Shown here in pieces: positions 32,908-63,781 of a stretch of DNA of 64,000 nt. The stretch covers positions 620,001 through 684,000 of the forward strand of contig NZ_CP042172.1 in assembly GCF_005937985.2 (NCBI RefSeq), in the 5' to 3' direction. The translations under genes were made by a program, and so were the position numbers. The stretch's first letter is position 1, and each line of letters opens with the position of its first letter. Below the pieces are notes generated by a model that worked only from the letters and a program-made list of their open reading frames with translations, was not told the origin of the DNA and did not search any database. Source of the DNA: Arthrobacter sp. KBS0702. Lineage in GTDB: Bacteria > Actinomycetota > Actinomycetes > Actinomycetales > Micrococcaceae.

Positions 32908-32935
32908 CTATCGGCAGGATTGCCGCACCCGTTAG
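32908..32935 (-). promoter_or_regulatory. FliA-type promoter of flgN-flgK-flgL-fliW
   Basis: On the minus strand CTAAC (32931-32935) is followed by exactly 15 nt and then GCCGATAG (32908-32915). This matches the sigma-28 -10 element GCCGATAA at seven of eight positions, and the layout recurs at 33004, 36437 and 48074. Confidence 0.82.
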
Positions 32936-33003
32936 CAGGAATAAGGCTGATAACACGCGGATTTCGGCGGGAGGGAAATTCCGAAAAGAATTTTGGAATT
33001 CTC

Positions 33004-33031
33004 CTTACCTCGGCAGTCCGGATGGCGATAA
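33004..33031 (+). promoter_or_regulatory. FliA-type promoter of flagellin
   Basis: CTTAC (33004-33008), 15 nt, then GGCGATAA (33024-33031), one mismatch to GCCGATAA. The start site should be near 33038, giving a leader of about 55 nt. Confidence 0.75.
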
Positions 33032-33042
33032 CTACTGCTGAA

Positions 33043-33086
33043 GGCCCACGGACGGGCCATCGCACACAGTCCCAAATCACGGAGGA
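33043..33086 (+). promoter_or_regulatory. Probable CsrA-binding leader of flagellin
   Basis: A GGCCC/GGGCC stem (33043-33047 and 33054-33058) presents the loop ACGGAC, and a second ACGGA begins at 33079 inside the Shine-Dalgarno sequence GGAGGA (33081-33086). Two GGA sites, one in a hairpin loop and one covering the ribosome binding site, are the known arrangement for CsrA repression of flagellin in Bacillus. csrA and fliW are both in this window. Binding itself is inferred. Confidence 0.65.
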
Positions 33087-33092
33087 AATACC

Positions 33093-33941
33093 ATGGGCTT
33101 CGTTATTAACAACAACCTCGCGGCTAACACGTCTTACCGCAACCTCAACGCCACGCAGGGCGACCTCTCCAAGTCCCTGGAGAAGCTGTCCACCGGCCTG
33201 CGCATCAACCGCGCCGGCGACGACGCAGCAGGCCTGTCCATCTCCGAGGGCCTGAAGGCACAGATCACCGGTTCGGCACAGGCCGCCCGCAACGCTCAGG
33301 ACGGCATCAGCGTCATCCAGACGACTGAAGGCGCCCTGACCGAGGTCCACTCCATCCTGCAGCGCGTGCGTGACCTTGCTGTTCAGGCCGGTAACGACTC
33401 GAACAACACGGATTCCCGCAAGGCCATCACCGCGGAGGCCACCAGCCTGGTGGACGAACTGGACCGCATGTCCTCCTCGACCAACTTCAACGGCATCAAG
33501 CTGCTGGACAAGTCCGCAGGCACCGCGGGCGTTATGTCCATGCAGGTCGGCGCCGGCAGCGGTGACCAGATCAAGGTTGACCTCTCGGGCGCGGACATCA
33601 AGACCCTTGCCACGAACCTGAAGACCAGCATCATCACCACCGACGGTTTCGCCAGCAGCACGGTGGCGGCCACCACCATCACTTCCCTCGACACGGCCAT
33701 TGGCACCGTCTCCTCGGCCCGCGCTGGCCTGGGTGCTACCCAGAACCGCCTCGAGCACACCGTCAAGGCACTGAACATCGCCGGTGAGAACCTGCAGGCT
33801 GCCCAGTCCCGCATCGCCGACGTCGACATGGCTTCGGAAATGGTCAAGTTCACCAAGGCCAACATCCTGTCCCAGGCCGGCACCGCGATGCTGGCCCAGG
33901 CCAACCAGTCCAGCCAGGGCGTTCTTTCGCTCCTGCGCTAG
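33093..33941 (+). CDS. fliC: Flagellin
   Basis: A 282-aa filament subunit. The N-terminal D0/D1 (MGFVINNNLAANTSYRNLNATQGDLSKSLEKLSTGLRINRAGDDAAGLSISEGL, residues 1-54) and C-terminal D1/D0 (ENLQAAQSRIADVDMASEMVKFTKANILSQAGTAMLAQANQSSQGVLSLLR) are complete. The central variable region is short, so there is essentially no outer D2/D3 domain. It stands alone, with its own FliA-type promoter, a putative CsrA-controlled leader with strong ribosome binding site GGAGGA, and a 16-bp stem terminator. Confidence 0.97.
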   Translation: MGFVINNNLAANTSYRNLNATQGDLSKSLEKLSTGLRINRAGDDAAGLSISEGLKAQITGSAQAARNAQDGISVIQTTEGALTEVHSILQRVRDLAVQAGNDSNNTDSRKAITAEATSLVDELDRMSSSTNFNGIKLLDKSAGTAGVMSMQVGAGSGDQIKVDLSGADIKTLATNLKTSIITTDGFASSTVAATTITSLDTAIGTVSSARAGLGATQNRLEHTVKALNIAGENLQAAQSRIADVDMASEMVKFTKANILSQAGTAMLAQANQSSQGVLSLLR

Positions 33942-34022
33942 GCAAACCCGGCAGTCTGGCAGTCAATGGTCAGCCTGCCACCCTGATCGGACGAAGAGAC
34001 ACCCCCGATCATTCAGCTGCGG

Positions 34023-34059
34023 AAGGGCCGGACGATGGCAAAACCATCGTCCGGCCCTT
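34023..34059 (+). terminator. Strong hairpin after flagellin
   Basis: AAGGGCCGGACGATGG (34023-34038) is perfectly complementary to 34044-34059 with the 5-nt loop CAAAA. No T-run follows; it may act as a transcript 3'-end stabiliser as well as a terminator. Confidence 0.8.
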
Positions 34060-34125
34060 ACGTGCAAAACCCTGACTTCAGATCACCGAACATTTTTTGA
34101 CAGTTATTGCCAAGGAGAGGCACCG

Positions 34126-35454
34126 ATGGGAATCTCACTCGACGGACTGGCCAGCGGGCTCGACACCACCGCGCTTATCAGCTCAATCATGCAGTCCGAA
34201 GCCCTCCCGCAAACCCTGCTCAAGAACAAGTCCTACGACATCCAGTCCATGGTCTCCGCCCTCCAGGGACTCAACGGCAAGGTTGCCGCGCTCGCAACAC
34301 AGGCCACGGCAGCCGCCAAACCCGGCGCCCTGGACCTCTACGCCGCGACCACGAACAGTGACAAGGTCGTCGCCACGACCACCGCGGCCGCGAAGGCGGG
34401 TTCCCTCGACTTCCAGGTCACCCAGTTGGCGCAGGCCCAGGTCACTGTCACGCCCAAGGTGAACGCGGTGACGGGCTGGCCGTACACCACGATGACGATC
34501 AACAGCGGCGGAGCGAATTACACGATCACCCCCGCCTCCAACAGCCTCGACGACGTCGTTTCTGCGGTCAACGCCGCGGGCGCCGGTGTCACCGCCAGCA
34601 AGGTCGACGTCGGCGGCGGCGACTTCCGGATCCAGTTCACCGCGACGAAGTCCGGTGCGGCCGGCGCGTTCACTATTACGGACCCAGGCACCACCTACAC
34701 CGACGTCAAGACCGCGCAGGACGCCACGATTTCGCTCTGGCCCGGCACCGCCGCCGCGCAGACGGTGACGTCGTCCACGAACACGTTCACTGATCTCCTG
34801 CCCGGCGTCTCCATCACCGCCAAGGACGTGACCGCGGCTCCCGTGACCCTGACGGTGTCCCGCGACGACGCCGGTATCACGAAAGTCGCCTCCGGCCTGG
34901 TCGACGGGGTCAACGGCATCTTCTCGCTTATCGCCCGCCAGAGCGCGGTCAGCACCAGCACGAACAGCGGCGGCACCACCACCTCCGCGGGCGTCTTCGC
35001 CGGTGACAGCACGGTCCGCTCCGTGAACCAGAACATCCTCTCCGCCGCGTCGCTGCCGGTGGGGACCCCGCCGCGGTCGCCGTCGGAAATCGGCATCAGC
35101 ATCACCAAGTCGGGCACGATGGAGTTCGATGCCACCAAGTTCGGCGCGGCCCTCGCCGCGGACCCCACGGGCACCGCCGCCAAGGTGCAGGAAATTGCCG
35201 GGCGCATCGCCACCGCTGCGACAGCCGCCTCGGACAAATACACCGGCACCCTGACCACCACGATCACCGGGCAGCAGTCCGAGGTCCGGGACCTCGCCGA
35301 CCGGATCAGCGACTGGGACACCCGGCTCGCCGCCCGCCAGGCGACGCTGAAAAGCACCTACTCGGCCCTCGAAGTGGCACTGAGCAACATGAAGGCCCAG
35401 CAAACCTGGCTGTCCTCGCAGCTCGCTGGCCTTGCCGGCGGGAGCGCCAAGTAA
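34126..35454 (+). CDS. fliD: Flagellar filament cap protein FliD
   Basis: A 442-aa protein. The N-terminus MGISLDGLASGLDTTALISSIMQSEALPQTLLK is the FliD_N domain. The C-terminus TGQQSEVRDLADRISDWDTRLAARQATLKSTYSALEVALSNMKAQQTWLSSQLAGL is the FliD_C helical region. It caps the filament and guides flagellin assembly. AAGGAGAGG precedes the ATG at 34126. The stop overlaps the fliS start (TAATG). Confidence 0.94.
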   Translation: MGISLDGLASGLDTTALISSIMQSEALPQTLLKNKSYDIQSMVSALQGLNGKVAALATQATAAAKPGALDLYAATTNSDKVVATTTAAAKAGSLDFQVTQLAQAQVTVTPKVNAVTGWPYTTMTINSGGANYTITPASNSLDDVVSAVNAAGAGVTASKVDVGGGDFRIQFTATKSGAAGAFTITDPGTTYTDVKTAQDATISLWPGTAAAQTVTSSTNTFTDLLPGVSITAKDVTAAPVTLTVSRDDAGITKVASGLVDGVNGIFSLIARQSAVSTSTNSGGTTTSAGVFAGDSTVRSVNQNILSAASLPVGTPPRSPSEIGISITKSGTMEFDATKFGAALAADPTGTAAKVQEIAGRIATAATAASDKYTGTLTTTITGQQSEVRDLADRISDWDTRLAARQATLKSTYSALEVALSNMKAQQTWLSSQLAGLAGGSAK

Positions 35455-36002
35455 TGACCAGCGCCCCCTTTGGGAATGGCTTCGGCGGCTACGGCAACTC
35501 GCTGGGCAACGGAGGCGCCGCCCAGCGGAACCAGTACCTGGCGGACTCCGTCCTCTCGGCCCCGCCGGCGCGCCTCCTGACCATGCTCTACGACCGGCTC
35601 CTGCTGGATCTGGGCCGCGCCGAGGCCGCACAGCAGGCCGCCAACTGGCCGGTCGCCTCGGAGAACCTGCTGCACGGCCAGGCGATCATCGCAGAGCTCA
35701 TTTCGTCGCTCAAGACGGATGCCTGGGACGGCGCGGACGGACTGCTGGGGCTTTATAACTACGCCTTCACCGCGTTGGTCAATGCCAACATCCAGCGGGA
35801 CGCGGCCCTCACACGCGAAGCGATCGAACTGCTGGAACCCCTCCGCCAGGCCTGGCACGAGGCCGCCGCGGCCATCCCCGTGGCCCAGCCGGCTGCCGCC
35901 CCGGCCGCAACACAAGCCGGACCGGCGTCGTCCGCCTTCGCAGCCGCCGGTGCCTGGGCCTCGCAGCCGGGTGCCGCCGGTGGGAGCCTTGGCTTTGGCT
36001 GA
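35454..36002 (+). CDS. fliS: Flagellin export chaperone FliS
   Basis: A 182-aa protein. Residues ~24-140 match FliS (NQYLADSVLSAPPARLLTMLYDRLLLDLGRAEAA, then helices through YNYAFTALVNANIQRD and EAIELLEPLRQAWHEAA). The C-terminal ~45 residues are an Ala/Pro-rich tail not normal for FliS (about 125-135 aa). It binds unfolded flagellin before export. It overlaps fliD by 1 nt and the next small gene by a few codons. Confidence 0.92.
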   Translation: MTSAPFGNGFGGYGNSLGNGGAAQRNQYLADSVLSAPPARLLTMLYDRLLLDLGRAEAAQQAANWPVASENLLHGQAIIAELISSLKTDAWDGADGLLGLYNYAFTALVNANIQRDAALTREAIELLEPLRQAWHEAAAAIPVAQPAAAPAATQAGPASSAFAAAGAWASQPGAAGGSLGFG

Positions 36003-36381
36003 GCAAGCCCATTGGGGGGACCAAACAGCCGAACCATTCCAGAAGGACCCCGCCCTCGCCGCGTGGTCCCTGGTACTGGACGTGCTGGAAATGGCCGTTG
36101 TCGCTGCGGAGAAGACCCTCAAGGACCCGTTGGGTCCACTCTCTGCGCGGGATCAGCCGGTGGCCGCGCTGCCCGCGGAACGCTGGTCCCCGCCGTCTCT
36201 GAATGCCCCGCTGCCTCCCGAGGCGCGCCGGCGGGCCTTGGCGTTGGCTGAGGCCCAGGAGCGTGTAGCCCGGCGGCTGGAGGCCGCCAAGCACGACGTC
36301 GTCCGTCAGCTACACGCCGTCAGTTCGGTGCCCGGTGTCGGCGACCCGTCCGGGGCGATTTACCTCGACGTCAACGGGTAA
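35995..36381 (+). CDS. Small helical protein at the fliT position
   Basis: About 128 aa, starting with TTG at 35995 (8 nt after GGGAG) inside the end of fliS; GTG at 35971 or 35980 are alternatives. The sequence has two helical stretches, LAAWSLVLDVLEMAVVAAEKTL near the start and PPEARRRALALAEAQERVARRLEAAKHDVVRQLHAV near the end, separated by a Pro-rich segment. I recognise no family. Its place after fliD-fliS is where FliT, the FliD chaperone, is often encoded, so a FliT-like role is possible but unproven. Confidence 0.6.
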   Translation: MAEQAHWGDQTAEPFQKDPALAAWSLVLDVLEMAVVAAEKTLKDPLGPLSARDQPVAALPAERWSPPSLNAPLPPEARRRALALAEAQERVARRLEAAKHDVVRQLHAVSSVPGVGDPSGAIYLDVNG

Positions 36382-36436
36382 AACCGGCGCCGAGCCGCGG
36401 CTCAAAAGAACCCGCATAAACGTTTCACATATTTTG

Positions 36437-36464
36437 CTAACGCGGCGCTGAACTGTGCCGATAA
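36437..36464 (+). promoter_or_regulatory. FliA-type promoter of the flgB operon
   Basis: CTAAC (36437-36441), 15 nt, then a perfect GCCGATAA (36457-36464), about 74 nt before the flgB start. The best sigma-28 match in the window. Confidence 0.87.
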
Positions 36465-36537
36465 CCACAGTAAGAGCACGGATCGCTCATTTACCGGCCA
36501 CGGATCGGCCACCCCACAATTCCCCAGGCAGGACTCT

Positions 36538-36879
36538 GTGCTCGAATCCGTGACTTCCGCCGCTCTGGCCAGCGCCCTGAACGGGCTGTCCCTGCGCCAG
36601 CGCACGATCGCGAACAACATCGCGAACGTCAACACGCCGAACTACCATGCCCAGCGCGTCAGCTTCGAAGATGCACTGGCCCAATCGGTACAGTCCGGCG
36701 ACGGCCACGTCCAGGCCACCACAGCGTCCTCCCTGGAACCCACCCAGCTCAACGGCAACAACGTCAACCTGGACACGGAAACTCTCTCCAACATCGATAC
36801 CGTGCTGCGCTTTCAGTTCGCCTCCCGCGCTGTTGGCTATGAGTTCAGTGCCGTCCGCGCAGCAATGAGGACCAACTAA
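36538..36879 (+). CDS. flgB: Flagellar proximal rod protein FlgB
   Basis: A 113-aa rod protein starting with GTG. Diagnostic stretches are LNGLSLRQRTIANNIANVNTPNYHAQRVSFEDAL and the C-terminal LRFQFASRAVGYEFSAVRAAM. First gene of the large rod/MS-ring/export operon; its stop overlaps the flgC ATG (TAATG). Confidence 0.94.
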   Translation: MLESVTSAALASALNGLSLRQRTIANNIANVNTPNYHAQRVSFEDALAQSVQSGDGHVQATTASSLEPTQLNGNNVNLDTETLSNIDTVLRFQFASRAVGYEFSAVRAAMRTN

Positions 36880-37271
36880 TGACCTTCGACGCCATCGGCA
36901 TCGCCGGCTCTGCCCTCACCGTGCACCGCAAGTGGCTCGACGCCGTCTCGGACAACCTGGCCAACATGAACAACGCCTCGGCCACGTCGGGCCCGGCGTT
37001 CCGCGCCAAGTACGTCGAGGCCGCCGAGGGCGCCGGGGGTACCGGCGTGTACGTCAAGAGCACGCAGCTGGGCGACGGTGCGGGACGCATCGTCTACCAA
37101 CCGGACCACCCGCTGGCCGACGCCAACGGCAACGTGAAGTACCCGGACATCGACATGGCCGAGCAGATGGGTGCACTGATCATTGCCCAGCGCGGCTACC
37201 AGGCCAATGCCCAGGTCGTGGACCGCGCCCGCGAAACCTACCTCGCCGCCCTTGAGATTGGAAGATCCTGA
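36879..37271 (+). CDS. flgC: Flagellar proximal rod protein FlgC
   Basis: A 130-aa rod protein with the N-terminal FDAIGIAGSALTVHRKWLDAVSDNLANMNNASATSGPAFRAKYV and C-terminal ALIIAQRGYQANAQVVDRARETYLAALEIGR typical of FlgC. Overlaps flgB and fliE by 1 nt each. Confidence 0.94.
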   Translation: MTFDAIGIAGSALTVHRKWLDAVSDNLANMNNASATSGPAFRAKYVEAAEGAGGTGVYVKSTQLGDGAGRIVYQPDHPLADANGNVKYPDIDMAEQMGALIIAQRGYQANAQVVDRARETYLAALEIGRS

Positions 37272-37576
37272 TGCCTGTTTCCCCCATCGCGCCGGTCCAG
37301 GGTGTCGTTCCCACGGACTACCTCTCCGGCGCCTCGGCCGTGCCCAGCACGGGCGGATCCGGCTTCGCGGCATCCCTCGCCGGGGCCGTGGATAACCTCC
37401 AGCAGCTGCAGTCGACGTCGAACCAGCTCGCCGTCTCGGCCGTCACCGGCAACCTCAACGACATCCAGGACGCCACCATCGCGGCCACCCGGGCACAGGT
37501 AACCCTGGAGCTCGTGGCATCCATGCGCAACAAGGGCGTTGACGCGTTCAACGAGATCATGAGGATGCAGGCCTGA
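37271..37576 (+). CDS. fliE: MS-ring/rod adaptor FliE
   Basis: A 101-aa protein. FAASLAGAVDNLQQLQSTSNQLAVSAVTGNLNDIQDATIAATRAQVTLELVASMRNKGVDAFNEIMRMQ is the FliE signature, including the conserved YxEIMRMQ-like end. Joins the MS-ring to the rod. Overlaps fliF by 1 nt (TGATG). Confidence 0.94.
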   Translation: MPVSPIAPVQGVVPTDYLSGASAVPSTGGSGFAASLAGAVDNLQQLQSTSNQLAVSAVTGNLNDIQDATIAATRAQVTLELVASMRNKGVDAFNEIMRMQA

Positions 37577-39186
37577 TGCCTCCGCAGATTACCGTCTTCT
37601 TCCAGCGCTTCGGCGCGGGCCTCAAGGGCTTCACCACCGGCCAGCGCACGCTGGCCGTCCTCGGCGGCGCCCTGCTCGTGGTGGGCATCATCGCGCTGTC
37701 AGCGTGGCTGTCCAAGCCCACCATGACGCCGCTGTTCTCCGGCCTCAAGAACACCGACGCGAACGGCATCGTGGAGCAGCTGCGCAAGGACAACGTGCCC
37801 TACGAACTCAGCGACGGCGGCGCCACCATCCTCGTCCCGCAGGACAAGGTCTACGACGAGCGTCTCAAGGCCGCGGCCGCAGGCCTCCCCACCGCCGCAG
37901 CCACCGGGTACTCGCTGCTGGACAAGATGGGCGTCACGTCCTCGGAGTTCCAGCAGTCCGTCACCTACAAACGCGCGCTCGAAGGCGAACTGGCCAGCAC
38001 CATTTCCGCCATGGAAGGCGTGAAGACCGCCGCCGTCCGGCTGGCGATCCCGGAAAAGACCGTCTTCGTCTCCAAAACCCCGGACACCACGGCCTCGGTC
38101 TTCATCGAGACCGCCCCCGGCGTCACGCTCTCCGGCGACAAGGTCCAGGCCATTGTGCACCTCACCTCCGCCGCGATCGAGAACCTCAAACCCGCCAACG
38201 TCTCCGTGGTCGACTCGCAGGGCAACGTCCTCTCCGCCGTGGGCGGCGGGGCCGCCGGTTCCTCCTCCAAGCAGGCCGCCGACTACCAACAGCGCACCGG
38301 CGACGCCGTCCGCGCCGTCCTGGACCGTGTGGTGGGCCCGGGCAACTCAACCGTGGCGGTCGCCGCGGACGTCACCGGCGAATCCGCCCAGCAGAAGAGC
38401 GAAACGTTCTCCAACACCCCCGGCGCGCTGCCGCTGAGTGAGTCCTCCAAGACCGAAAAGTACAGCGGAACCGGGGGAGGGGCCGCCGGCGTCCTGGGCC
38501 CGGACAACATCGCCGTCCCCGGTGGCACCAGCGGCAACGGCAACTTCGACTCCACCACGGCGACCAAGAACAACGCCGTCAACAAGGTCACCGAGGACCG
38601 GGTCATCCCGCCGGGCGCCGTCAAGCGCCAGACCATCTCCGTGGCTGTCAGCCAGTCCGCCGCCGGCGGGCTGAACCTCGGCTCGCTGACCGCGCTGGTC
38701 ACCTCCGCGGCCGGCGTCGACCGGGCCCGCGGCGACGTCGTCACCGTCGAGGTGATCCCGTTCAGCACGGCCGCAGCGGACCAGGCCAATGCCTCCCTCG
38801 ACGCGGCCAAGGCCGAAATCGAGGCGCAGAAGCAGGCGGCGTTCTTCGGCACCCTCGTCACCGCCGGAAGCATCCTGCTCGGGCTGCTGATCCTGGCCCT
38901 GATCGTCACCATCATCCTGCGCCGCCGGCAGAAGCGTGAACCGGTGGACCTCGGCGAACGCCTGGACCTGCTGCCGCCGCTGCCCGCCGTGACCGCCTTC
39001 GACCCGGCGCCCGCGACCTCGGCCATCCCGCTGACCGCGCTGCCGCTGCAGCCGCTGCCGGCCCCGCCGATGGAAGTACTCGAGGCCGAGCGCCGGATGC
39101 AGGAAATCGACAACATGGTCGCCGCCAACCCGGAAAAGGCCGCCGACTACCTCCGCGGCCTGATGGATGACAGGCAGCCCGCATGA
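37576..39186 (+). CDS. fliF: Flagellar MS-ring protein FliF
   Basis: A 536-aa membrane-ring protein. TM1 is near residues 23-45, followed by PTMTPLFSGLKNTDANGIVEQLRKDNVPYELSDGGATILVP and the ring-building domains (GVTSSEFQQSVTYKRALEGELASTISAMEGVKTAAVRLAIP). TM2 is near 435-458, and the cytoplasmic tail ends VAANPEKAADYLRGLMDD, which binds FliG. The base on which rotor and export gate assemble. Confidence 0.95.
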   Translation: MPPQITVFFQRFGAGLKGFTTGQRTLAVLGGALLVVGIIALSAWLSKPTMTPLFSGLKNTDANGIVEQLRKDNVPYELSDGGATILVPQDKVYDERLKAAAAGLPTAAATGYSLLDKMGVTSSEFQQSVTYKRALEGELASTISAMEGVKTAAVRLAIPEKTVFVSKTPDTTASVFIETAPGVTLSGDKVQAIVHLTSAAIENLKPANVSVVDSQGNVLSAVGGGAAGSSSKQAADYQQRTGDAVRAVLDRVVGPGNSTVAVAADVTGESAQQKSETFSNTPGALPLSESSKTEKYSGTGGGAAGVLGPDNIAVPGGTSGNGNFDSTTATKNNAVNKVTEDRVIPPGAVKRQTISVAVSQSAAGGLNLGSLTALVTSAAGVDRARGDVVTVEVIPFSTAAADQANASLDAAKAEIEAQKQAAFFGTLVTAGSILLGLLILALIVTIILRRRQKREPVDLGERLDLLPPLPAVTAFDPAPATSAIPLTALPLQPLPAPPMEVLEAERRMQEIDNMVAANPEKAADYLRGLMDDRQPA

Positions 39187-40199
39187 AACTTGCCGAATCG
39201 ACCCTCACCGGGACCCAGCGTGCCGCCGTCGTCCTGATGCAGATGAGCCCCGCCAACGCGGCGCGGGTGATGGCCCAGTTCACCGACAACGAGGCGGAGG
39301 AAATCGCCGCCGAGATTGTCCGGCTCCGCAAGGTGGACCCCGAGGTCGCCGAGCAGATCATGAAGGACTTCCACGAGGCTGCCCTGAGCAGCCCGCGGCA
39401 GGCCCGCGGCGGCCGGGAGCTCGCCGAAGGCCTGCTCGAGGCGTCGTTCGGCTCCGAGAAGGCTGCCGGCCTGATCAACCGGCTGACGGTGAACATGGCC
39501 GGCAAGTCCTTCGAGTTCCTCGAAGACATCGAACCGGTGCAGATCCTCGCCCTGATCGACGGCGAACTGCCACAGACCATCGCCCTGGTCCTGGCCCACC
39601 TGAGCCCGCGCAAGGCCTCGGCCGTGATGTCCGGCCTGCCCGGCTCGCTCCGGGCCGATGTCGCGCTGAGCATCGCCACGATGGGCTCCGGCGCTCCGGA
39701 AGCCATCGGCATCGTGGCGGACACGCTGAAACTGCGTGGCGGCGCCGCCGTCTCGCAGCAGGCCTCCAAGGTGGTCGGCGGCATCCAGCCGCTGCTCGAA
39801 ATCATCAACCGGACCGACGCCGGCACCGAACGGTCAGTCCTGGACGGCCTGGACCTGCTCGATCCGGACCTCGCCGTGGAGATCCGCGCCCAGATGGTGA
39901 CTTTCGAGGACATCGTGAAGCTGGAACGCCGCGACGTTCAGCTGGTGCTCCGCGGCCTGGACGCCTCTGTGCTGGCCGTGGCCATGAAGGGTGCCACGGA
40001 ACCGGTCCTGGAGACCATCACCACCAACGTTTCGGGACGCAACCTCGAAATCCTCGAATCCGAGATGGCTGCGCTGGGACCGTTGCGCGCCTCGCAGATC
40101 GAGGAGGCGCGTGCCGCCGTCGTCCGCTCCATCCGCGAACTCGAGGCCGACGGCCAGATCACGATCCAGCGCGGGGACGAAGAAGACTATGTCTACTGA
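39183..40199 (+). CDS. fliG: Flagellar motor switch protein FliG
   Basis: A 338-aa protein with the three FliG domains. The start TGTQRAAVVLMQMSPANAARVMAQFTDNE is the N domain, QILALIDGELPQTIALVLAHLSPRKASAVMSGLP the middle domain, and FEDIVKLERRDVQLVLRGLDASVLAVAMKGA the C domain, whose charged helix contacts MotA. ATGA overlap with fliF. Confidence 0.96.
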   Translation: MKLAESTLTGTQRAAVVLMQMSPANAARVMAQFTDNEAEEIAAEIVRLRKVDPEVAEQIMKDFHEAALSSPRQARGGRELAEGLLEASFGSEKAAGLINRLTVNMAGKSFEFLEDIEPVQILALIDGELPQTIALVLAHLSPRKASAVMSGLPGSLRADVALSIATMGSGAPEAIGIVADTLKLRGGAAVSQQASKVVGGIQPLLEIINRTDAGTERSVLDGLDLLDPDLAVEIRAQMVTFEDIVKLERRDVQLVLRGLDASVLAVAMKGATEPVLETITTNVSGRNLEILESEMAALGPLRASQIEEARAAVVRSIRELEADGQITIQRGDEEDYVY

Positions 40200-40842: not shown

Positions 40843-42167
40843 TCGCCCAGTGGCGCCCCAAGGGGGACGACTTCGCGACCGCCCTCGCCGCCGCCTCGCC
40901 GCAGCGGGTCGGCACCGTCACTTCCGTGATGGGCCTGGGCCTTGAGGTGTCCGGCCTGGACTGCGCGCTCGGCGACCTCCTCACCGTGGGGGAGCACCCC
41001 GGGCTCGACGCCGAAGTCGTGGCTGCCCTCGACGGCGCCGTGCGCTGCATGCCGCTGGGACGCCTCGCCGGCGTCGCCGCCGGCGACCCCGTCCGCGCCA
41101 AGGGCGGCACCGTGCTGGTCCCCACCGGCGCCGGGCTCTTCGGCCGCGTTCTCGACGGCCTCGGCCGGCCGATCGACGGCAAGGGCCCGCTGCTCAGCGG
41201 CCCGCGGGTCCCGATCGACAACGAGGCGCCGAACGCCATGAAACGCGCCCGGATCAATACCGCGCTGCAGACCGGCGTCCGGGTGCTGGACACCATGACC
41301 ACTCTGGGCAAGGGCCAGCGCATGGGCCTCTTCGCCGGCTCCGGCGTCGGCAAGTCCTCGCTGCTGTCCATGATCGCCCGCGGCACCGACGCCGAAGTGT
41401 CCGTCATCGCCCTCGTGGGGGAGCGCGGCCGCGAAGTCCGCGAATTCCTCGAGGACGACTTGGGCCCTGCCGGGCTGGCCCGCTCCGTGGTGGTGGTCGC
41501 CACCTCCGACGAGCCGGCCTTGATGCGCATGCGCGCCGCGTTCACGGCCACCCGCATCGCCGAGTCCTTCCGCGACCAGGGCCGGGATGTCGTCCTGATG
41601 ATGGACTCCCTCACCCGTGTGGCCATGGCCCAGCGCGAGATCGGCCTCTCTGCCGGCGAACCGCCCGCCACCCGCGGCTACCCGCCGTCGACCTTCTCCA
41701 TCCTCGCGCGGCTGCTCGAGCGCGCCGGCACCGCCGAAACCGGCTCCGTCACCGGCATCTACACCGTGCTGGTGGACGGCGACGACCACAACGAACCCAT
41801 CGCCGACGCCGCCCGGTCGATCCTCGACGGCCACGTGGTGCTGGACCGGAAACTCGCCGTGACAGGGCATTTCCCCTCCGTGGACGTGCTCGGGTCGGTC
41901 TCCCGCGTGGCCTCGAAGGTCAACGCCCGGCCCCATCTGGAGGCCGCCTCCACACTGCGCCGGGTCCTCGCGGCCCGCAAGTCCGCCCAGGACCTGATCG
42001 ACGTCGGCGCCTACCAGGCCGGGACCAACCCGCTGGTGGACGCCGCCCTGGCGCACGAGCACGCCATCAGCGGGTTCCTGCAGCAGCCGATGGACGAGTC
42101 CACCCCCCATCCCGAGTCCTGGCGCCAGCTGGACCACCTCACTTCGATCCTGGGAGCCGCGGCATGA
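40839..42167 (+). CDS. fliI: Flagellar export ATPase FliI
   Basis: A 442-aa ATPase homologous to F1-beta. Walker A is GSGVGKSS (about 167-174), Walker B DVVLMMDSLTRVAMAQREIG, followed by GEPPATRGYPPSTFSILARLLERAG. The N-terminus MIAQWRPKGDDFATALAAASPQRVG is short. Energises or times export through the FlhAB gate. Confidence 0.96.
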   Translation: MIAQWRPKGDDFATALAAASPQRVGTVTSVMGLGLEVSGLDCALGDLLTVGEHPGLDAEVVAALDGAVRCMPLGRLAGVAAGDPVRAKGGTVLVPTGAGLFGRVLDGLGRPIDGKGPLLSGPRVPIDNEAPNAMKRARINTALQTGVRVLDTMTTLGKGQRMGLFAGSGVGKSSLLSMIARGTDAEVSVIALVGERGREVREFLEDDLGPAGLARSVVVVATSDEPALMRMRAAFTATRIAESFRDQGRDVVLMMDSLTRVAMAQREIGLSAGEPPATRGYPPSTFSILARLLERAGTAETGSVTGIYTVLVDGDDHNEPIADAARSILDGHVVLDRKLAVTGHFPSVDVLGSVSRVASKVNARPHLEAASTLRRVLAARKSAQDLIDVGAYQAGTNPLVDAALAHEHAISGFLQQPMDESTPHPESWRQLDHLTSILGAAA

Positions 42168-42598
42168 GCCGGCAATTTTCACTGGCGGGGCTGTTGCGCC
42201 TCCGCCAGATCCAGCAGGACCAGGCCGCCTCCGGGCTGGCCCGGGCCCGGTCCCGGTCCAGCTCAGTCCGCGCCCGGGAAGCCTCGGCGCGCCGGCAACT
42301 GACCGCCGCCGACGAGGAAGTCGTCAGCTCGGCGTCGCTGCGCGCCGTGGCCGCCGCCCGGTCGGCCTCGCACAGCATGCTCGCGGACCTGCAAAACCTC
42401 GCCCGCATCGCCGAGACCGACGAGGCCACGGCCCGCGAGGAATTCATCGCCGCCCGCACCCGCTCCGTCGGCCTGGAGAAGCTGCAGGCCCGGCACCACG
42501 CCGAGGTCACCACCGCCGAGCTGCGGGCCGAACAGTCCACCCTGGACGAGATCTCCTCGACGATCTGGCACCGGGACGAGCAGCAGGTGCGCTCATGA
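42164..42598 (+). CDS. fliJ: FliJ-like flagellar export component
   Basis: A 144-aa, all-helical, Arg/Ala-rich coiled-coil protein starting MSRQFSLAGLLRLRQIQQDQAASGLARARSRSSS. FliJ is poorly conserved in sequence, so the call rests on size, coiled coil and position directly after fliI (ATGA overlap). Confidence 0.82.
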   Translation: MSRQFSLAGLLRLRQIQQDQAASGLARARSRSSSVRAREASARRQLTAADEEVVSSASLRAVAAARSASHSMLADLQNLARIAETDEATAREEFIAARTRSVGLEKLQARHHAEVTTAELRAEQSTLDEISSTIWHRDEQQVRS

Positions 42599-43293
42599 GC
42601 ATGACCGAGGCGCTGGGCCGCATGCAGGGCATCCAGTCGATGATCGCGGAACTGAGCCGCCCGGCCCAGACCGAAAGCACAGCCGCGGCCCTGAAGTCCG
42701 GCGCCGCGACCTCCCTCGCCACCGGCACGGGAACCGGCGACGCCGCCTCGTTCACCGACGCCCTCACCGCGGCGCTCGGCGGGAGCGGCCTGGCGTCCGG
42801 CACGGACGTCTCCTCGCTGGCCAAGGGCCTGGGGCTGGGAGGAACCACCGGGCTCGGCGCGCTGACCGGGCTCACCCCGCCGGCCTCCCTCGGCCCCTCG
42901 TCGTTGCCGGCCGGCACCGCCACCGGCACGGACGTGGTCGCCATGGCCAAGAAATACATCGGCGTGCCCTACGTCTGGGGCGGCACCAACCCGGCCACCG
43001 GCATGGACTGCTCCGGCTTCACCCAGCGGGTGTTCAAGGACCTGGGCATCGAGCTTCCCCGGGTGGTCAGCGACCAGATGAAGCAGGGAACTCCCGTGGC
43101 GTCCCTCGCGCAGGCCAAGCCCGGGGACCTGCTGATCAGTTTCGGCGGGAACCACATTTCCATCTACCTCGGCAACGGCAAAGCCATCGACGCGCCCGTG
43201 CCGGGCAAGACCATCCAGATCCGCGACGCCTGGGAGCAGCAGTCCAACCTGACCTCCATCCGGCGGATCGTTCCGGCAGGAGGCGCCTCATGA
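42595..43293 (+). CDS. NlpC/P60 peptidoglycan hydrolase in the flagellar operon
   Basis: A 232-aa protein. The C-terminal ~125 residues are an NlpC/P60 domain: VVAMAKKYIGVPYVWGGTNPATGMDCSGFTQ with catalytic Cys ~139, GNHISIYLGNG with His ~187, and AIDAP for the third polar position. The first ~105 residues are Gly/Ala/Ser-rich, and MTEALGRMQGIQSMIAEL begins the protein. No Sec signal peptide or membrane helix is present. It sits between fliJ and fliK with ATGA overlaps on both sides. The likely job is to open peptidoglycan for the growing rod, as the FlgJ muramidase does elsewhere, with export through the flagellar apparatus itself (inference). Confidence 0.9.
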   Translation: MSMTEALGRMQGIQSMIAELSRPAQTESTAAALKSGAATSLATGTGTGDAASFTDALTAALGGSGLASGTDVSSLAKGLGLGGTTGLGALTGLTPPASLGPSSLPAGTATGTDVVAMAKKYIGVPYVWGGTNPATGMDCSGFTQRVFKDLGIELPRVVSDQMKQGTPVASLAQAKPGDLLISFGGNHISIYLGNGKAIDAPVPGKTIQIRDAWEQQSNLTSIRRIVPAGGAS

Positions 43294-44867
43294 AAGGCAT
43301 GGCTTCGGCGGACCTGGCTTCGGCGCTCGCCGCGGCCCCCGCGCAGACCCGCGGCCCCCAGCAGGGGAGCCGTGGCCGCTCCGAGGCCGGAGCAGCCGGC
43401 GGCTTCGGAACGGTACTGAACGACGCCGTGACCCACGAGGCGGCCACCGCGGCGGGCCAGGCCGGCCAGACTCCCGCCGACGCCTCGACAAAGCGCGACG
43501 CGGCCGAGGCCACCGGGCCGGACACCGCAGCTTCCGCTCCGGCCGGCCCTGCTCCGGCCGCCGACGCCGGCATCCTCGCCGCCTCGGCCCTGTTCGCGGC
43601 CGGAATTCAGCCCGCTGCGGACACGGCCGAAAACACGCCCATGACGGCGGGGCAGCAGGCCGCCGTGCCGGCTGGCGGCCAGGTCATCGCAGCTTCCGCC
43701 CAGGCGCTTGCCGACCCACGACTCGCTGCCCCGGCCGCGGCCGGATCCGCTGCGCCCGTTGCGTCCGGCCCGGCACTCCAGGTCGCGGCATCCCAGGCCG
43801 CCGTCCCGTCTGCCGTCCCGTCCGCCGCGACGGCCCCCGGCAGCGGCGCAGCGGCCGCGGCAGCTGCGTTCTCCGTCCCCGGCGCTGTCGCGGCCTCCCG
43901 CGAATCGGGAACCAGCGCAGCCGGCGGCCTCACGGCGTCGATGCCGGACACCCAGCTTTCGGGCGCCGTCGTCCTCCCAACGGCCGCTGGCCAAAGCGGA
44001 GCGAGTGGCCAAGGCGCCGGCGGCCGCGCATCCGACCAGACCGCCCCGGGCTCGGCTGCCGCCGCCCCGGGACAGCAGGTTGCTCCCCTGGCAGCAGGAC
44101 AGGGCCTGTCCCCGGCGCCTGCTCTTCCCGCAGCGACGGGAGCCGCGGGAGCTGCTCCTGCGGCCGCACCGGCACCCGGCGCGGCGGGCGCCGCCGCCGC
44201 CGGTCCGCTTTCCGGCCTCGCACCGGCAGCCCCCGCGGACAGCCTCCCCGCAGCGACCGCGGCCGCACCCGTCGACGGCCTGGCCGCCGCCGGCGTCGCG
44301 GGTTCCGCGGTACCGGCGCCGACGCCCGGACCGGTGCCGTCGGCCGCCGCTCCCCAGCCCGCCGCCCCGGCATCGGCCCCGCAGCCTGCCCTCCAGCCGC
44401 AGCTGGCCAAGCCGCTCTTCACCCTCGCCGGGGCACCGCACGGCCAGCACATTATGACCCTGAAGGTCACCCCGGAAGACCTGGGACCGCTGACCGTGCG
44501 CGCCCACATCGACGGAACCGGAGTACGGATCGAACTGTTCGCCCCGGGAGATTCCGGCCGGGAAGCGCTGCGGGCGATCCTCCCGGAGCTGCGCAAGGAA
44601 CTTGCGGACTCCGGGTTTGGTGCAAGCCTGGACCTTTCGGACCAGAACGGACCCCCCGGTCAGGGACAGGAGCCCTGGCAGGACGCCGGCCAGGACCCGG
44701 GCCGGAACGGTTTCGGAACCGGTTCGGGCGGCAACGGCCCCGGCCGCGGCGGCCTCCACGGAGACCCGCGTCCGGGTCACCGCTGGGACGCCCTGGCCGA
44801 TGAATCCGCGCTGCGCACCGCCAGGATCTTGAATGGCCCCCAGACCACCCTCGACATTCTCGTCTGA
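43290..44867 (+). CDS. fliK: Flagellar hook-length control protein FliK
   Basis: A 525-aa protein. About residues 20-370 are Ala/Pro/Gly-rich low complexity, typical of the FliK ruler region. The conserved C-terminal domain (about 385-450) is HIMTLKVTPEDLGPLTVRAHIDGTGVRIELFA...LRAILPELRKELADSGF. It measures hook length and switches export specificity at FlhB. The tail is Gly/Asn/Gln-rich. Confidence 0.92.
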   Translation: MKGMASADLASALAAAPAQTRGPQQGSRGRSEAGAAGGFGTVLNDAVTHEAATAAGQAGQTPADASTKRDAAEATGPDTAASAPAGPAPAADAGILAASALFAAGIQPAADTAENTPMTAGQQAAVPAGGQVIAASAQALADPRLAAPAAAGSAAPVASGPALQVAASQAAVPSAVPSAATAPGSGAAAAAAAFSVPGAVAASRESGTSAAGGLTASMPDTQLSGAVVLPTAAGQSGASGQGAGGRASDQTAPGSAAAAPGQQVAPLAAGQGLSPAPALPAATGAAGAAPAAAPAPGAAGAAAAGPLSGLAPAAPADSLPAATAAAPVDGLAAAGVAGSAVPAPTPGPVPSAAAPQPAAPASAPQPALQPQLAKPLFTLAGAPHGQHIMTLKVTPEDLGPLTVRAHIDGTGVRIELFAPGDSGREALRAILPELRKELADSGFGASLDLSDQNGPPGQGQEPWQDAGQDPGRNGFGTGSGGNGPGRGGLHGDPRPGHRWDALADESALRTARILNGPQTTLDILV

Positions 44868-44885
44868 CACAAAGGAACGCGACAT

Positions 44886-45347
44886 ATGACGATTCAACCG
44901 ATCGCATCACAGCCGATCGCTCCCCAGCCGGTCACGCCGCAGCTTGTCGGGGGCACCGCCTCCGCGCCGGCGTCGGCCGTACGCTCGCCCGTTCAGAGCA
45001 TGGACGCCAATGTGTTCATGACGCTGTTGGTGGCGCAGATGAAAAACCAGAACCCCAGCGCTCCGATGGACACCAACCAGATGATGAGCCAGACCATCCA
45101 GCTCTCCATGATGGAAAAGACCACCGAGATGACCACCAACAGCAAGGAGGCGTTCTCCCTCCAGATGCGGTCGGCCGCCGCGCAACTGGTGGGCCACAAC
45201 GTCGACTACACGCTCAGCGACGGCACCACCGGCAGCGGACTCGCCTCTTCGGTGACTTTTGCCGGCGCAGTTCCGGCCGTCAAGGTCGGTACCCTTTCCA
45301 TCCCGCTCGACTCGATTTCCGGCATTACGGCGCCCGCCGCCTCCTAA
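44886..45347 (+). CDS. flgD: Hook assembly scaffold FlgD (short form)
   Basis: A 153-aa protein. The core VFMTLLVAQMKNQNPSAPMDTNQMMSQTIQLSMMEKTTEM is the diagnostic FlgD segment, and GHNVDYTLSDGTTGSGLASSVTF matches the following strand region. It is shorter than the usual ~220 aa, lacking most of the C-terminal Tudor/Fn3-like part. It caps the hook during growth. Confidence 0.92.
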   Translation: MTIQPIASQPIAPQPVTPQLVGGTASAPASAVRSPVQSMDANVFMTLLVAQMKNQNPSAPMDTNQMMSQTIQLSMMEKTTEMTTNSKEAFSLQMRSAAAQLVGHNVDYTLSDGTTGSGLASSVTFAGAVPAVKVGTLSIPLDSISGITAPAAS

Positions 45348-45378
45348 TCAGTGCTTCACCCGTAGAAAGGCAGTTCCC

Positions 45379-46569
45379 ATGCTCCGCTCGCTGTACTCCG
45401 GAATCTCCGGCCTCCGTGCCCACCAGACCATGCTGGATGTCACCGGCAACAACATTGCCAACGTCAACACCGCCGGCTTCAAGTCTTCGACCACCCAGTT
45501 CCAGGACACCCTCTCGCAGATGACCCAGGGGGCCTCCGCGCCGCAGGGCGAATCCGGCGGCAGCAACCCGGCGCAGATCGGCCTCGGCGTCCGGGTCGCC
45601 GGCGTCAGCACCAACTTCGCCCAGGGCTCCTCGCAGAGCACCGGCCGCGCCACCGACATGATGATCTCCGGCGACGGCTTCTTCGTCACCAGCAAAGGCG
45701 GACAGCAGCTGTTCACCCGCGCCGGGTCCATGACCTTCGACGCTAACAGCCAGCTGGTCAGCCCCGACGGCGGCATCCTCCAGGGCTGGACCGCCGACCA
45801 GACCGGCGTCGTGAACCAGGGCGGCGCCATCGGCAACATCACGCTCAACCCCAACACCATGATCGCCAACGCCACGAGCAAGGTCACGCTGGACGGAAAC
45901 CTGCCCAGTGACGCCGCCGTCGGCAGCCCCGACCTGCAGCGCGTCGTCAAGGTGTACGACGCCACGGGCGCCGCGCGCGACGTAACCCTCACCTTCTCCA
46001 AGACCGCAACGGGATGGAGTGCGGCAGGGAGCGACGCCAACGGCGCTACGGCCAGTGTCACGCTCAACCAGAACCCCGACGGCACCCTGACGCCCAGCGG
46101 CCCCTTCCAGCTCGGTGCGGGTGCATCTGCCATCACGGTGGACCTGTCGAAGGTCTCCGGCTACGCCACGATGAACTCCCTCACGGTCGCCGGCCAGAAC
46201 GGCGCGGCCGTCGGCAAGCTCGAATCCTTCACCCTCGGCAACGACGGCTCCCTGATCGGGTCCTTCAGCAACGGCACCAAGCAGGTGCTGGCCAAGATCG
46301 CGCTGGCGAAGTTCACCAACCCGGCCGGCCTGGAGAAAGCCGGCGGCTCGTCCTACGTCGCCACCGCCAACTCCGGCAACGTCCAGCTGGGCGCGGCCGG
46401 CGACCCGGGCATCGGCACCCTGGCCGGCGGCTCGCTGGAAATGTCCAACGTGGACCTCTCCCAGGAGTTCACTAACCTGATCGTCGCCCAGCGCGGTTTC
46501 CAGGCCAATGCCCGCATCATCACCACCTCCGACGAGGTCCTGCAGGAGCTGACCCAGCTCAAGCGCTAA
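45379..46569 (+). CDS. flgE: Flagellar hook protein FlgE
   Basis: A 396-aa protein. N-terminal MLRSLYSGISGLRAHQTMLDVTGNNIANVNTAGFKSS and C-terminal ISNVDLSQEF-like LEMSNVDLSQEFTNLIVAQRGFQANARIITTSDEVLQELTQLKR are the hook/rod D0 pair, and the length and central domains (DGFFVTSKGGQQLFTRAGSMTFD) fit FlgE. The ATG at 45379 follows GAAAGG. It is the only FlgE/F/G-type gene in the window. Last gene before the P450 insertion. Confidence 0.93.
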   Translation: MLRSLYSGISGLRAHQTMLDVTGNNIANVNTAGFKSSTTQFQDTLSQMTQGASAPQGESGGSNPAQIGLGVRVAGVSTNFAQGSSQSTGRATDMMISGDGFFVTSKGGQQLFTRAGSMTFDANSQLVSPDGGILQGWTADQTGVVNQGGAIGNITLNPNTMIANATSKVTLDGNLPSDAAVGSPDLQRVVKVYDATGAARDVTLTFSKTATGWSAAGSDANGATASVTLNQNPDGTLTPSGPFQLGAGASAITVDLSKVSGYATMNSLTVAGQNGAAVGKLESFTLGNDGSLIGSFSNGTKQVLAKIALAKFTNPAGLEKAGGSSYVATANSGNVQLGAAGDPGIGTLAGGSLEMSNVDLSQEFTNLIVAQRGFQANARIITTSDEVLQELTQLKR

Positions 46570-46589
46570 TCTCCGGCGCACCACCCCGG

Positions 46590-46650
46590 GTTGCCCTATC
46601 ACGTATAGCTGCCAAAAGCAGGCCCAAGCAGCCATACGTGATAGGGCAAC
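46590..46650. repeat. 23-bp near-perfect inverted repeat after flgE
   Basis: The left arm starts GTTGCCCTATCACGTATAG (46590-46612) and the right arm (46628-46650) is its complement with a single mismatch, around a 15-nt loop. It lies between the convergent flgE and P450 genes. There is no T-run; it could be a bidirectional terminator, a protein site or a dispersed palindromic repeat. Confidence 0.8.
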
Positions 46651-46687
46651 GGGTTGGGTGCGGGCAACGGCCGCGCGTCGGCGGTGC

Positions 46688-47848
46688 TCAGGCGGCCTGC
46701 CAGCGCACCGGAAGCTGTTTCACCCCGAAGACGATCGTGCTGTCCATCCGCTCCAGCCGCGCCCCAGGTTCCACTGCCAGCCCCGGCAACCGGGAGAGCA
46801 CGGCCTGCAGCGCGATCTTTGCTTCGAGCCGGGCCAGCGGCGCCCCGAGGCAGAAGTGGATGCCCTGCCCAAAGGCGAGGTGGCGGTTCGGCGAGCGGAC
46901 GACGTCGAACACGTCCGGATGCGGGAACTGGTGCTCATCGCGGTTTGCCGAGCCGATCCAGGCCACGATCGGCGAGCCCGCCGGGATCGGCCGGCCGTGC
47001 AGCTCGGTGTCTACGGCGGCGACCCGGTACATGGACTGGACGGGGGAGCGGTAGCGGAGCACCTCTTCGATCGCCTGGGGAAGCAGCTCCGGCTCGGCTG
47101 CCAGCCGCTCCGCCGTGCCCGGCGCTTCGGTGAAGCACAGCACGGCGTTGCCAATCAGGTTGGTGGTGGTTTCGTTGCCCGCGACGAGCAGGAGGGCGCA
47201 GAATCCCAGCAGCTCCATGACGCTGAGTTTCTGCCCGTCGATCTCCGCCATGAGGAGGCTGCTGATCAAGTCCTGGCCCGGCCGGTGCCGCCGTTCCTCG
47301 ATCATCCCCAAAAAGTACTCGACCATGTCCTGGTTGCCGGGGGACCGGTCCTCGTCGCCGTCCGGGCGTTGGCTCACGATCACGTCGGACCAGAGCTTGA
47401 ACCGGTCCCGGTCCGCGGCAGGGATGCCCATCAGCTCCGCGATCACGATCACCGGGAGCGGATACGCCAGCTGCTCGATCAGATCGGTGCTGCCGGCGGG
47501 AACCACTGGTTCCAGCAAGCCCTCCGTGAGCGCCGCGATGCGCGGGGCGAGCGCCTCCACGGCCCGCGGCGTGAACGCCTGAGTCACCAGCGAACGCAGC
47601 TGGCGGTGCCGCGGCGGATCCGTGTTGATCAGGCTCGCTGCGAAGAGCTGGCCCGTCTCGGAGGGACTGTCACCGCTGAACCGGGAAGAAAACGCGGCGT
47701 GGTCGGACAGGACACGCTGCACGTCCGCATAGCCGAAGGCGTGCCAGACCCCGCTCTCCGGATCCTGGAAAACCGGATCACTGCGGCGCATCGCTTCGTA
47801 GTGCGGAAACGGGTTCAGCGGCTGCTCAAGAGCCGGAAATGACACCAT
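46688..47848 (-). CDS. Cytochrome P450
   Basis: A 386-aa soluble bacterial P450. The heme-binding motif is FGQGIHFCLGAPLARLE with ligand Cys ~333, the I-helix oxygen motif is LLVAGNETTTNLIG, and the K-helix ExxR is EEVLRYRSPV. The ATG at 47848 follows AGGAGG about 7 nt upstream. It lies in reverse orientation inside the flagellar cluster, between flgE and flbD, with no ferredoxin or reductase partner nearby. The substrate is unknown. The position suggests a later insertion (inference). Confidence 0.93.
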   Translation of the reverse strand: MVSFPALEQPLNPFPHYEAMRRSDPVFQDPESGVWHAFGYADVQRVLSDHAAFSSRFSGDSPSETGQLFAASLINTDPPRHRQLRSLVTQAFTPRAVEALAPRIAALTEGLLEPVVPAGSTDLIEQLAYPLPVIVIAELMGIPAADRDRFKLWSDVIVSQRPDGDEDRSPGNQDMVEYFLGMIEERRHRPGQDLISSLLMAEIDGQKLSVMELLGFCALLLVAGNETTTNLIGNAVLCFTEAPGTAERLAAEPELLPQAIEEVLRYRSPVQSMYRVAAVDTELHGRPIPAGSPIVAWIGSANRDEHQFPHPDVFDVVRSPNRHLAFGQGIHFCLGAPLARLEAKIALQAVLSRLPGLAVEPGARLERMDSTIVFGVKQLPVRWQAA

Positions 47849-47942
47849 GGCTGGCCCTCCTCTTGGGGCGGGCGGCCGTGTTTGTGGCTCTATGCGGCGC
47901 CCGTGGACCAACGATCATCCAACCGTGTCGGGCCAGGGGTTT

Positions 47943-47968
47943 AACGGGGCGGGCCGCGCGGCCCCGTT
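47943..47968. repeat. Hairpin AACGGGGC...GCCCCGTT
   Basis: An 8-bp GC stem with a 10-nt loop in the 321-bp gene-free region 47849-48169 between the divergent P450 and flbD genes. The rest of that region holds the flbD promoter at 48074-48101 and nothing else I can identify. Confidence 0.4.
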
Positions 47969-48073
47969 GGCTTCCACCCTAGTCCCGTGCAGCCGCGGCC
48001 GCACCGGGAACGGCGAAATTCAGCTGATCCTGGCCTCCGGCCACGCGGCGGCGGGCGGCTCCCTGCCAGGTGC

Positions 48074-48101
48074 CTAACGAAAGCGCGCCGGCGGCCGACA
48101 G
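48074..48101 (+). promoter_or_regulatory. FliA-type promoter of flbD-motAB-fliM...flhA
   Basis: CTAAC (48074-48078), 15 nt, then GCCGACAG (48094-48101). The -35 and spacing equal those at flgN and flgB; the -10 has two changes from GCCGATAA. It lies 69 nt before flbD. Confidence 0.68.
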
Positions 48102-50106: not shown

Positions 50107-50148
50107 GCCGGTATTGCCTCGGGCGGATGGCTTACGGCGGCTGATCCC

Positions 50149-63496: not shown

Positions 63497-63518
63497 AGCA
63501 ACTGAATATGCCTTTGAT

Positions 63519-63728: not shown

Positions 63729-63781
63729 GGAACCCGAATCAATGTGGCGTACCCTGCGCCGCCTTAGTTATGGAGTTCCTT

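Follow-up and report, generated by a model that had tools for sequence, protein, structure and literature searches.

FliA-type boxes before early and late flagellar units, and GGA-hairpin leaders of fliC and flgB, in Arthrobacter sp. KBS0702

What keeps the early and late genes of a flagellum in order when the same promoter-like box stands before both? The question is raised by Arthrobacter sp. KBS0702, a soil bacterium with a single-contig genome of 3.65 Mb, and by the one large flagellar cluster contained in the stretch of DNA analysed here (contig NZ_CP042172.1, positions 620,001 to 684,000; these 64 kb are called the window, and positions are counted from its first letter unless the genome is named). 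A preliminary description of this DNA had reported four promoters sharing CTWAC-N15-GSCGAYAR, before flgN, the flagellin gene, flgB and flbD, and had proposed that a FliA-type factor drives early as well as late genes, so that the usual class II/III split may be absent. The reading favoured here, which is considered fairly probable, is that one FliA sigma factor would transcribe all five flagellar units and that the order of assembly would be set on the mRNA by CsrA.

Boxes before the five flagellar units

Coordinates, strands and the 15-nucleotide spacer of the four sites were all exact in a pattern scan of the window, but their number was too low, since a fifth exact match just before fliM had been overlooked. 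Shuffled windows contained a mean of 0.01 matches and none of 100 reached five. Conservation was followed in group A, which comprises 27 genomes including the own one, that is, 27 of the 28 genus-sample genomes with a FliG at least 85% identical (G156, whose locus is on a short contig, was left out). Family searches were run on selected proteins of the cluster; the names fliE-fliK, flgC-flgE, fliO-fliR, flhA-flhB and others come from gene order and sequence reading. The boxes and the first genes behind them are as follows.

32908..32935, minus strand: putative FliA-type promoter of flgN-flgK-flgL-fliW, CTAAC-N15-GCCGATAG, exact in 26/26 group A loci
32332..32817, minus strand: flgN (PF05130)
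33004..33031, plus strand: putative FliA-type promoter of fliC, CTTAC-N15-GGCGATAA, exact in 26/27 group A loci and with one mismatch in 1/27
33093..33941, plus strand: fliC, flagellin; of the NCBIfam models a flagellin one matches best (score 268.5, cut-off 352)
36437..36464, plus strand: putative FliA-type promoter of flgB...flgE (rod, membrane-supramembrane (MS) ring, export ATPase, hook), CTAAC-N15-GCCGATAA, exact in 27/27 group A loci
36538..36879, plus strand: flgB, first gene of the early unit (TIGR01396, above cut-off)
48074..48101, plus strand: putative FliA-type promoter of flbD-motA-motB, CTAAC-N15-GCCGACAG, exact in 25/25 group A loci
48170..48457, plus strand: flbD (PF06289, which bears out the name given earlier)
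50131..50158, plus strand: putative FliA-type promoter of the fliM...csrA genes, exact in 20/20 group A loci
50167..51063, plus strand: fliM, from the GTG after the box (PF02154 in the reading frame from 50149; TIGR01397 in 50167-51060, below cut-off)

By gene order the five boxes head five units: flgN-flgK-flgL-fliW, fliC with the genes downstream, flgB-flgE, flbD-motA-motB and fliM-csrA. They thus precede rod, export and hook genes (flgB), the motor (flbD-motAB), switch and export genes (fliM), the hook-filament junction (flgN) and flagellin. In the passages available of PMC8325347, the sigma-28 (FliA) consensus is a TAAA-like -35 box and a GCCGATAA-like -10 box 15 nucleotides apart; TWAC-N15-GSCGAYAR is found at all five sites, with the same spacing in group A. 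Each of the five has a box variant that is conserved at that promoter (GGCGATA at fliC, for instance, or GCCGACAG at flbD), a sign that promoter strengths may be tuned. At fliM the GTG at 50167 follows the -10 box after only 8 nucleotides, a distance found in 20/20 group A loci and in 30/37 loci overall, and the fliM mRNA is for this reason probably leaderless.

In the whole genome, where the preliminary description had advised a scan, seven exact matches were identified and none with the reversed pattern. Of the two outside the cluster, one begins 276 nucleotides 5' of the ftsZ start and the other lies inside an open reading frame of 409 codons. The former (genome positions 1438117-1438144) was identified in the own genome and in three near relatives, with diverged spacers, and was not seen within 340 nucleotides upstream of ftsZ in 26 others; it is a possible tie between motility and cell division. 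Another FliA-type box stands beside the start of a TetR-like gene (by sequence reading) in two close relatives. A looser genome scan, allowing two mismatches to CTWAC-N15-GCCGATAA, gave 37 matches against 46 for the reversed pattern; as there was no contrast, only near-exact matches are informative.

Among the testable starts of flgN, fliC, flgB, flbD and fliM in group A, 124/125 have the exact box and the last has one mismatch. The control starts (motA, flgC, fliF and fliG) came within one mismatch in 0/104 cases, and random windows in 1/2700. Three more distant groups had the box within one mismatch at 35/39, 39/52 and 9/23 starts. A second sample comprises named loci, the best 80 of 574 confirmed FliG candidates, partly overlapping with the genus and order genomes; the closest named FliG relatives in it are Arthrobacter species. 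With a relaxed pattern and at most one mismatch, the box was found there at flgN in 56/56, fliC in 64/67, flgB in 64/80, flbD in 30/31 and fliM in 23/23, and at control starts in 0/269. Across 198 genomes of the genus, at least three matches occurred in 52/56 flagellated genomes and in 3/142 others (three FliG-positive genomes with partial or weak matches, G008, G097 and G205, are entered as not flagellated). One contig of a metagenome-assembled genome labelled Acidobacteria encodes a FliG 58% identical to the query and is perhaps misbinned.

A second promoter on the early units, of SigA type or driven by an activator, with the FliA box boosting later expression and the class II/III split persisting, is an arrangement known in other bacteria such as Bacillus or the enterics, and a box cannot show itself to be the sole promoter. 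In group A the boxes hold 1.86-2.00 bits per position, the spacers 0.76-1.57 and the 60 nucleotides upstream a mean of 0.30-0.76. Some AT-rich conservation is left in front of the two facing genes fliC and flgN, whereas no second strongly conserved block was seen within 60 nucleotides upstream of the flgB, flbD and fliM boxes (farther upstream was not searched). A conserved leader hairpin, moreover, starts directly after the flgB box. Such a second promoter is regarded as improbable.

The sigma factor FliA and the search for FlgM

One FliA-like protein was identified in the own genome at E 0.001 (12 of 16 first-look candidates were scored).

59658..60476, plus strand: fliA, FliA/WhiG-like sigma factor (Pfam, NCBIfam and PDB matches)
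59499..59534, plus strand: fliA upstream element, GAG-N2-TACACGC-N15-TGRTANNTT, conserved, of extended -10 type and not a FliA box

The start at 59658, as given in the preliminary description, is in keeping with tblastn matches that begin at residue 1 in 24/25 loci with a match. PF04542 and PF04545 (regions 2 and 4) are above their cut-offs and PF04539 (region 3) just below, 25 against 25.3 bits; the three sigma regions of a FliA/WhiG protein were counted as present. The best PDB matches are 6pfv and 6pfj, followed by the FliA entries 1rp3 and 6pmi; the match table calls the first two only sigma factor, and we take them to be WhiG. FliA is, by resemblance and not by the NCBI cut-off, a diverged relative of FliA/WhiG. 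Its tail of about 50 residues (60315-60473) extends past the part aligned to solved FliA-type sigma factors.

The fliA gene lies outside the five boxed units, as does a second FlgN-like gene (58917-59441) divergent from it, whose upstream region matches the box in 1/27 loci and not in the own genome. From 40 loci taken for the region upstream of fliA, 24 gave a match; all 24 have at least three mismatches to the box, and all 24 have the extended -10. Autoregulation of fliA by FliA was rejected on these counts. The idea of a regulon of the upstream element was also rejected, as the element occurs at one place only in the genome at up to three mismatches. Since the fliA upstream region has no FliA box and has another conserved element, it is likely that another promoter supplies FliA first and that FliA then acts on the remaining units.

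FlgM (PF04316) was identified in 0/59 genomes including the own one, 20 of them with FliG and 39 without a full FliG match; the same search detected it in three known genomes. This agrees with the passages available of PMC10746217, PMC4255298 and PMC2587704. A class II/III hierarchy gated by FlgM would have FlgM and early genes free of FliA boxes, and here, next to the lack of an FlgM match, flgB (27/27) and fliM (20/20) carry the exact box in group A. With no FlgM found and FliA boxes already on the early genes, a checkpoint on assembly would probably not be of the classical kind, in which FlgM gates the passage from one sigma factor to another. From boxes before early and late units alike, conserved across genera, from the one FliA-like protein and from the missing FlgM, we infer with good support that one sigma factor would control early and late genes, and to this extent the earlier proposal of a FliA-type factor driving both stands.

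Leaders of fliC and flgB

What remains is how order could arise below a single sigma factor, and the leaders of the flagellin and flgB mRNAs are the candidates for it. The elements on the flagellin side are listed first.

33043..33058, plus strand: hairpin of the fliC mRNA leader, GGCCC-ACGGAC-GGGCC, with an ANGGAN loop of CsrA type; loop in 119/119 leaders
33078..33089, plus strand: fliC Shine-Dalgarno region with a second GGA (CACGGAGGAAAT); GGAGGA in 115/119 leaders
58650..58910, plus strand: csrA (above the cut-off of PF02599 and just below those of the NCBIfam csrA models; 5dmb chain D is the best PDB match)
29633..30022, minus strand: fliW (above the cut-off of PF02623 and below those of the NCBIfam FliW models; 5dmb chain A, a FliW, is the best PDB match)

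The loop of the fliC hairpin is six nucleotides, A[ACT]GGA[CT], in 119/119 loci. The stem covaries: among 69 distinct versions 427/483 pairs form, against 356.0 (standard deviation 5.6, maximum 376) in 2000 partner shuffles, a test that preferred CC/GG flanks when anchoring the loop and whose shuffles ignore relatedness. The stem is broken at the second or third pair from the loop in 7/119 loci, and Rfam gave no family for this leader. In the passages available of PMC7652899, CsrA targets combine an ANGGAN hexaloop with a site located at the ribosome site, and by its letters the fliC leader is laid out in that way. A CsrA-FliW-flagellin checkpoint would need both protein genes and both leader sites; csrA and fliW are encoded in the cluster, their best PDB matches being two chains of one entry (5dmb), and the flagellin leader contains the ANGGA hairpin (119/119) and a second GGA at the ribosome site (GGAGGA in 115/119).

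The early unit headed by flgB has a leader of another type, with two hairpins.

36474..36488, plus strand: flgB leader hairpin 1, GAGC-ACGGATC-GCTC; 9 nucleotides from the -10 box to the stem
36496..36510, plus strand: flgB leader hairpin 2, GGCC-ACGGATC-GGCC; stem nearly invariant

With 9 nucleotides between the -10 box and its stem (8 or 9 in 103/117 loci), the first hairpin should lie near the 5' end of the mRNA. Of 160 flgB leaders, 153 have at least one GGA hairpin and 143 have two. Elsewhere it is rare: 0/417 before motA, flgC and fliF, 4/161 before fliG, 2/95 before flgN, 1/66 before fliM and 2.3% of random windows. The flbD leaders have it in 13 of 20 remote loci but in 3/86 nearer ones. 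Rfam gave two sub-threshold matches for the flgB leader.

The covariance model used here draws on 49 of the 87 distinct flgB leader cores (48 diverse ones and that of the window, some from genomes later searched). It scored 54.9 bits in the own genome, the next place there scoring 22.2. The order sample comprises 396 genomes, 106 with FliG (two of these, G356 and G363, are fragments), and was searched with stricter filters and 16 candidates scored per genome; at E 0.001 matches were found in 84/106 genomes with FliG and in 16/290 without. All 76 matches of at least 32 bits were in FliG genomes, the best in a genome without FliG having 30.4 bits, and 70 of the 76 were within 6 kb of fliG. In the six away from fliG, four downstream proteins were tested and were three NlpC/P60 hydrolases and one FliP; at the remaining two loci the protein start is similar to the NlpC/P60 ones. 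Five of these six loci have an exact relaxed FliA box (CTHAN-N15-NBCGATRR) 7 or 8 nucleotides before the hairpin, the FliP locus having two mismatches. In these six loci the double hairpin would thus again precede early-type genes, and this is the strongest hint that the leader marks a gene class.

On the proposed mechanism, all five units would be transcribed by one sigma factor of FliA/WhiG type, whose own gene would have a promoter that is not a FliA one. On the fliC mRNA, flagellin synthesis would be held off by CsrA sitting on the hairpin and on the overlapping ribosome site for as long as the hook is unfinished; once flagellin is exported, FliW would be set free and would remove CsrA. 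On the flgB mRNA, a CsrA dimer might bridge the two hairpins near the 5' end, away from the ribosome site, where a change of stability would be likelier than a ribosome block. CsrA alters the stability of the Escherichia coli flhDC mRNA, according to the passages available of PMC2587704. Opposite signs of CsrA on the two leaders could restore an early/late order with no second sigma factor. Both the use of the boxes by FliA and the binding and direction of CsrA are predicted in this scheme from boxes, spacing, hairpins and gene set.

Several results weigh against it. The box fades with distance, to 9/23 starts in the most distant group (D), and at least two mismatches were found at 13/20 Curtobacterium flgB starts. 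In 20 remote loci (relaxed box, at most one mismatch, tallied by eye) it was identified at fliC in 4/13, flgB in 6/20, flbD in 7/20 and fliM in 0/4, controls giving 1/38; the best matches there often combine CTCA with GCCGATGG or GCCGATGA, and the pattern may drift in these loci and not vanish. FliA, though FliA_WhiG (TIGR02479) is its best-scoring family, is below the curated cut-off of that family (127 against 189.6 bits). Leaders of flgN, fliM and, near this genome, flbD have almost no hairpins, and the order-wide model search left 22/106 FliG genomes (the two fragments included) with no match and 16/290 genomes lacking FliG with weak ones. Neither the fliC nor the flgB leader folds with a better energy than its shuffles (z -0.71 and 0.26). 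Finally, the flgB stems are nearly invariant, with pairing at 79.1% against 79.2% in shuffles; double changes were 26 against 19.2, a number reached by 68/500 shuffles. Of the two hairpins only the first, which was picked by its longest stem, exceeds its own shuffles (378 against 357.8, maximum 373); the second falls short of its own (315 against 322.6). Covariation was for this reason rejected as support for the flgB hairpins.

Near-invariant stems with a repeated core (CACGGATCG) and no significant covariation would also be expected if the flgB repeats, rather than forming RNA hairpins, were bound as DNA by a repressor or activator just past the start. The distance between the repeats varies, however, through insertions and deletions, unlike that of a helically phased site, and in their loops they are similar to the fliC hairpin, which does covary. 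When the partners are slid by one column, pairing falls from 79% to at most 39%. We therefore give little credence to DNA sites.

The flgB hairpins could also be unrelated to timing, with FliA on every unit, no early/late order of expression, and specificity switching at the export gate alone ordering assembly. The same box on all five units, the lack of an FlgM match and the near absence of GGA hairpins before flgN, fliM and, in the near set, flbD are in keeping with this explanation; the strong conservation of two distinct leader types on fliC and flgB, and the presence of csrA and fliW in the cluster, argue against it, and it is held to be unlikely. As to the supposed absence of a class II/III split, a split between two sigma factors is indeed not visible in the sequence, but the wording passed over the distinct conserved RNA leaders of fliC and flgB. 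Because the leader hairpins of these two mRNAs differ and are strongly conserved, and because csrA and fliW are in the cluster, an early/late distinction may persist after transcription, which is where control by CsrA below a single FliA would place it.

Neighbouring genes, known systems and meaning

Other features of the cluster and window are the following. A gene of the NlpC/P60 family lies between fliJ and fliK (42595-43293), and a cytochrome P450 gene (46688-47911, opposite strand) between flgE and flbD, where the size of the gap varies among relatives. The gene at the flhF position (57501-58640) has no Pfam or NCBIfam match. An msiK RNA (12699-12757), a tRNA (17529-17602) and two adjacent glycine riboswitch aptamers (63515-63730) were also identified. 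No chemoreceptor (PF00015) was found in the own genome, although the flagellar set is present, and swimming without chemotaxis or an unknown type of receptor may perhaps account for it.

The flagellar units of Actinoplanes reportedly have a CTCA-N15-17-GCCGAA consensus upstream, and the flagellar cluster and FliA-family sigma factors of Actinoplanes missouriensis are said to be treated in Jang 2016 and Hashiguchi 2020; the CTCA found so often as the -35 of the best box matches in remote loci is a likeness to it. FliA-type control of flagellar genes is known in A. missouriensis from the passages available of PMC8325347, and Actinoplanes, which forms zoospores, is described as having three FliA factors and the regulator TcrA in those of PMC11064477; the Actinoplanes passages of both sources make no mention of CsrA leaders. 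The cluster studied here differs in its one FliA-like protein, in its CTWAC boxes and in the lack of a detected chemoreceptor.

In Bacillus subtilis CsrA acts beside FlgM and a two-sigma hierarchy, whereas here no FlgM was found and the early-unit leader also has GGA hairpins. The likeness is to the Hag-FliW-CsrA system, in which, as the passages available of PMC7652899 describe, CsrA has two sites in the flagellin leader, of which one is at the ribosome site; both csrA and fliW are encoded here too. ANGGA loops in the flagellin leader are shared with flaA of Campylobacter jejuni, where the passages available of PMC4894983 describe two stem-loops, one at the ribosome site, with compensatory changes. 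There CsrA also bound class 2 mRNAs, flgB being barely enriched (1.6 x), and the classes are made by RpoD, RpoN and FliA, unlike here. The motility island of Kineococcus radiotolerans likewise encodes fliA but no flgM and includes csrA, and a CsrA site has been proposed where ribosomes bind its flagellin mRNA (PMC2587704, a paper with no promoter analysis, the word itself being absent from the text, and with no conserved hairpin or flgB leader element in the available passages). The WhiG-RsiG cyclic di-GMP switch of Rubrobacter, another actinobacterium, likewise involves a sigma factor of the flagellar clade and TAAA/GCCGATAA promoters, but controls type IV pili (available passages of PMC8325347).

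FliA-type flagellar control (Actinoplanes) and a proposed CsrA site on flagellin mRNA (Kineococcus) are thus already known from the passages cited. Apparently new are three findings: that early units in loci of Micrococcaceae and Microbacteriaceae keep the box, that the flagellin hairpin covaries and that flgB has a double-hairpin leader. No description of these was found in a literature search that covered few subscription papers. The passages available of the review PMC4255298 point out that the part played by WhiG-type sigma factors in the motility of simple motile actinobacteria had yet to be analysed and that these bacteria have no FlgM-like protein; those of PMC2587704 ask how FliA is controlled without FlgM.

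The conserved boxes and leaders are named, testable sites for this open question of FliA control. For flagellated Micrococcales and relatives a tentative, rather doubtful generalization would be that the early and late classes have shifted from sigma factors to RNA, with the leader type timing the use of each mRNA, FliW, CsrA and flagellin replacing FlgM as the checkpoint, and free CsrA having opposite effects on the two leader types; as part of the same tentative picture, the double leader near the 5' end would belong to rod and export genes and the single hairpin with a ribosome site to flagellin. If the RNA part is true, the timing of a large machine can pass from control at the level of DNA to control at the level of RNA.

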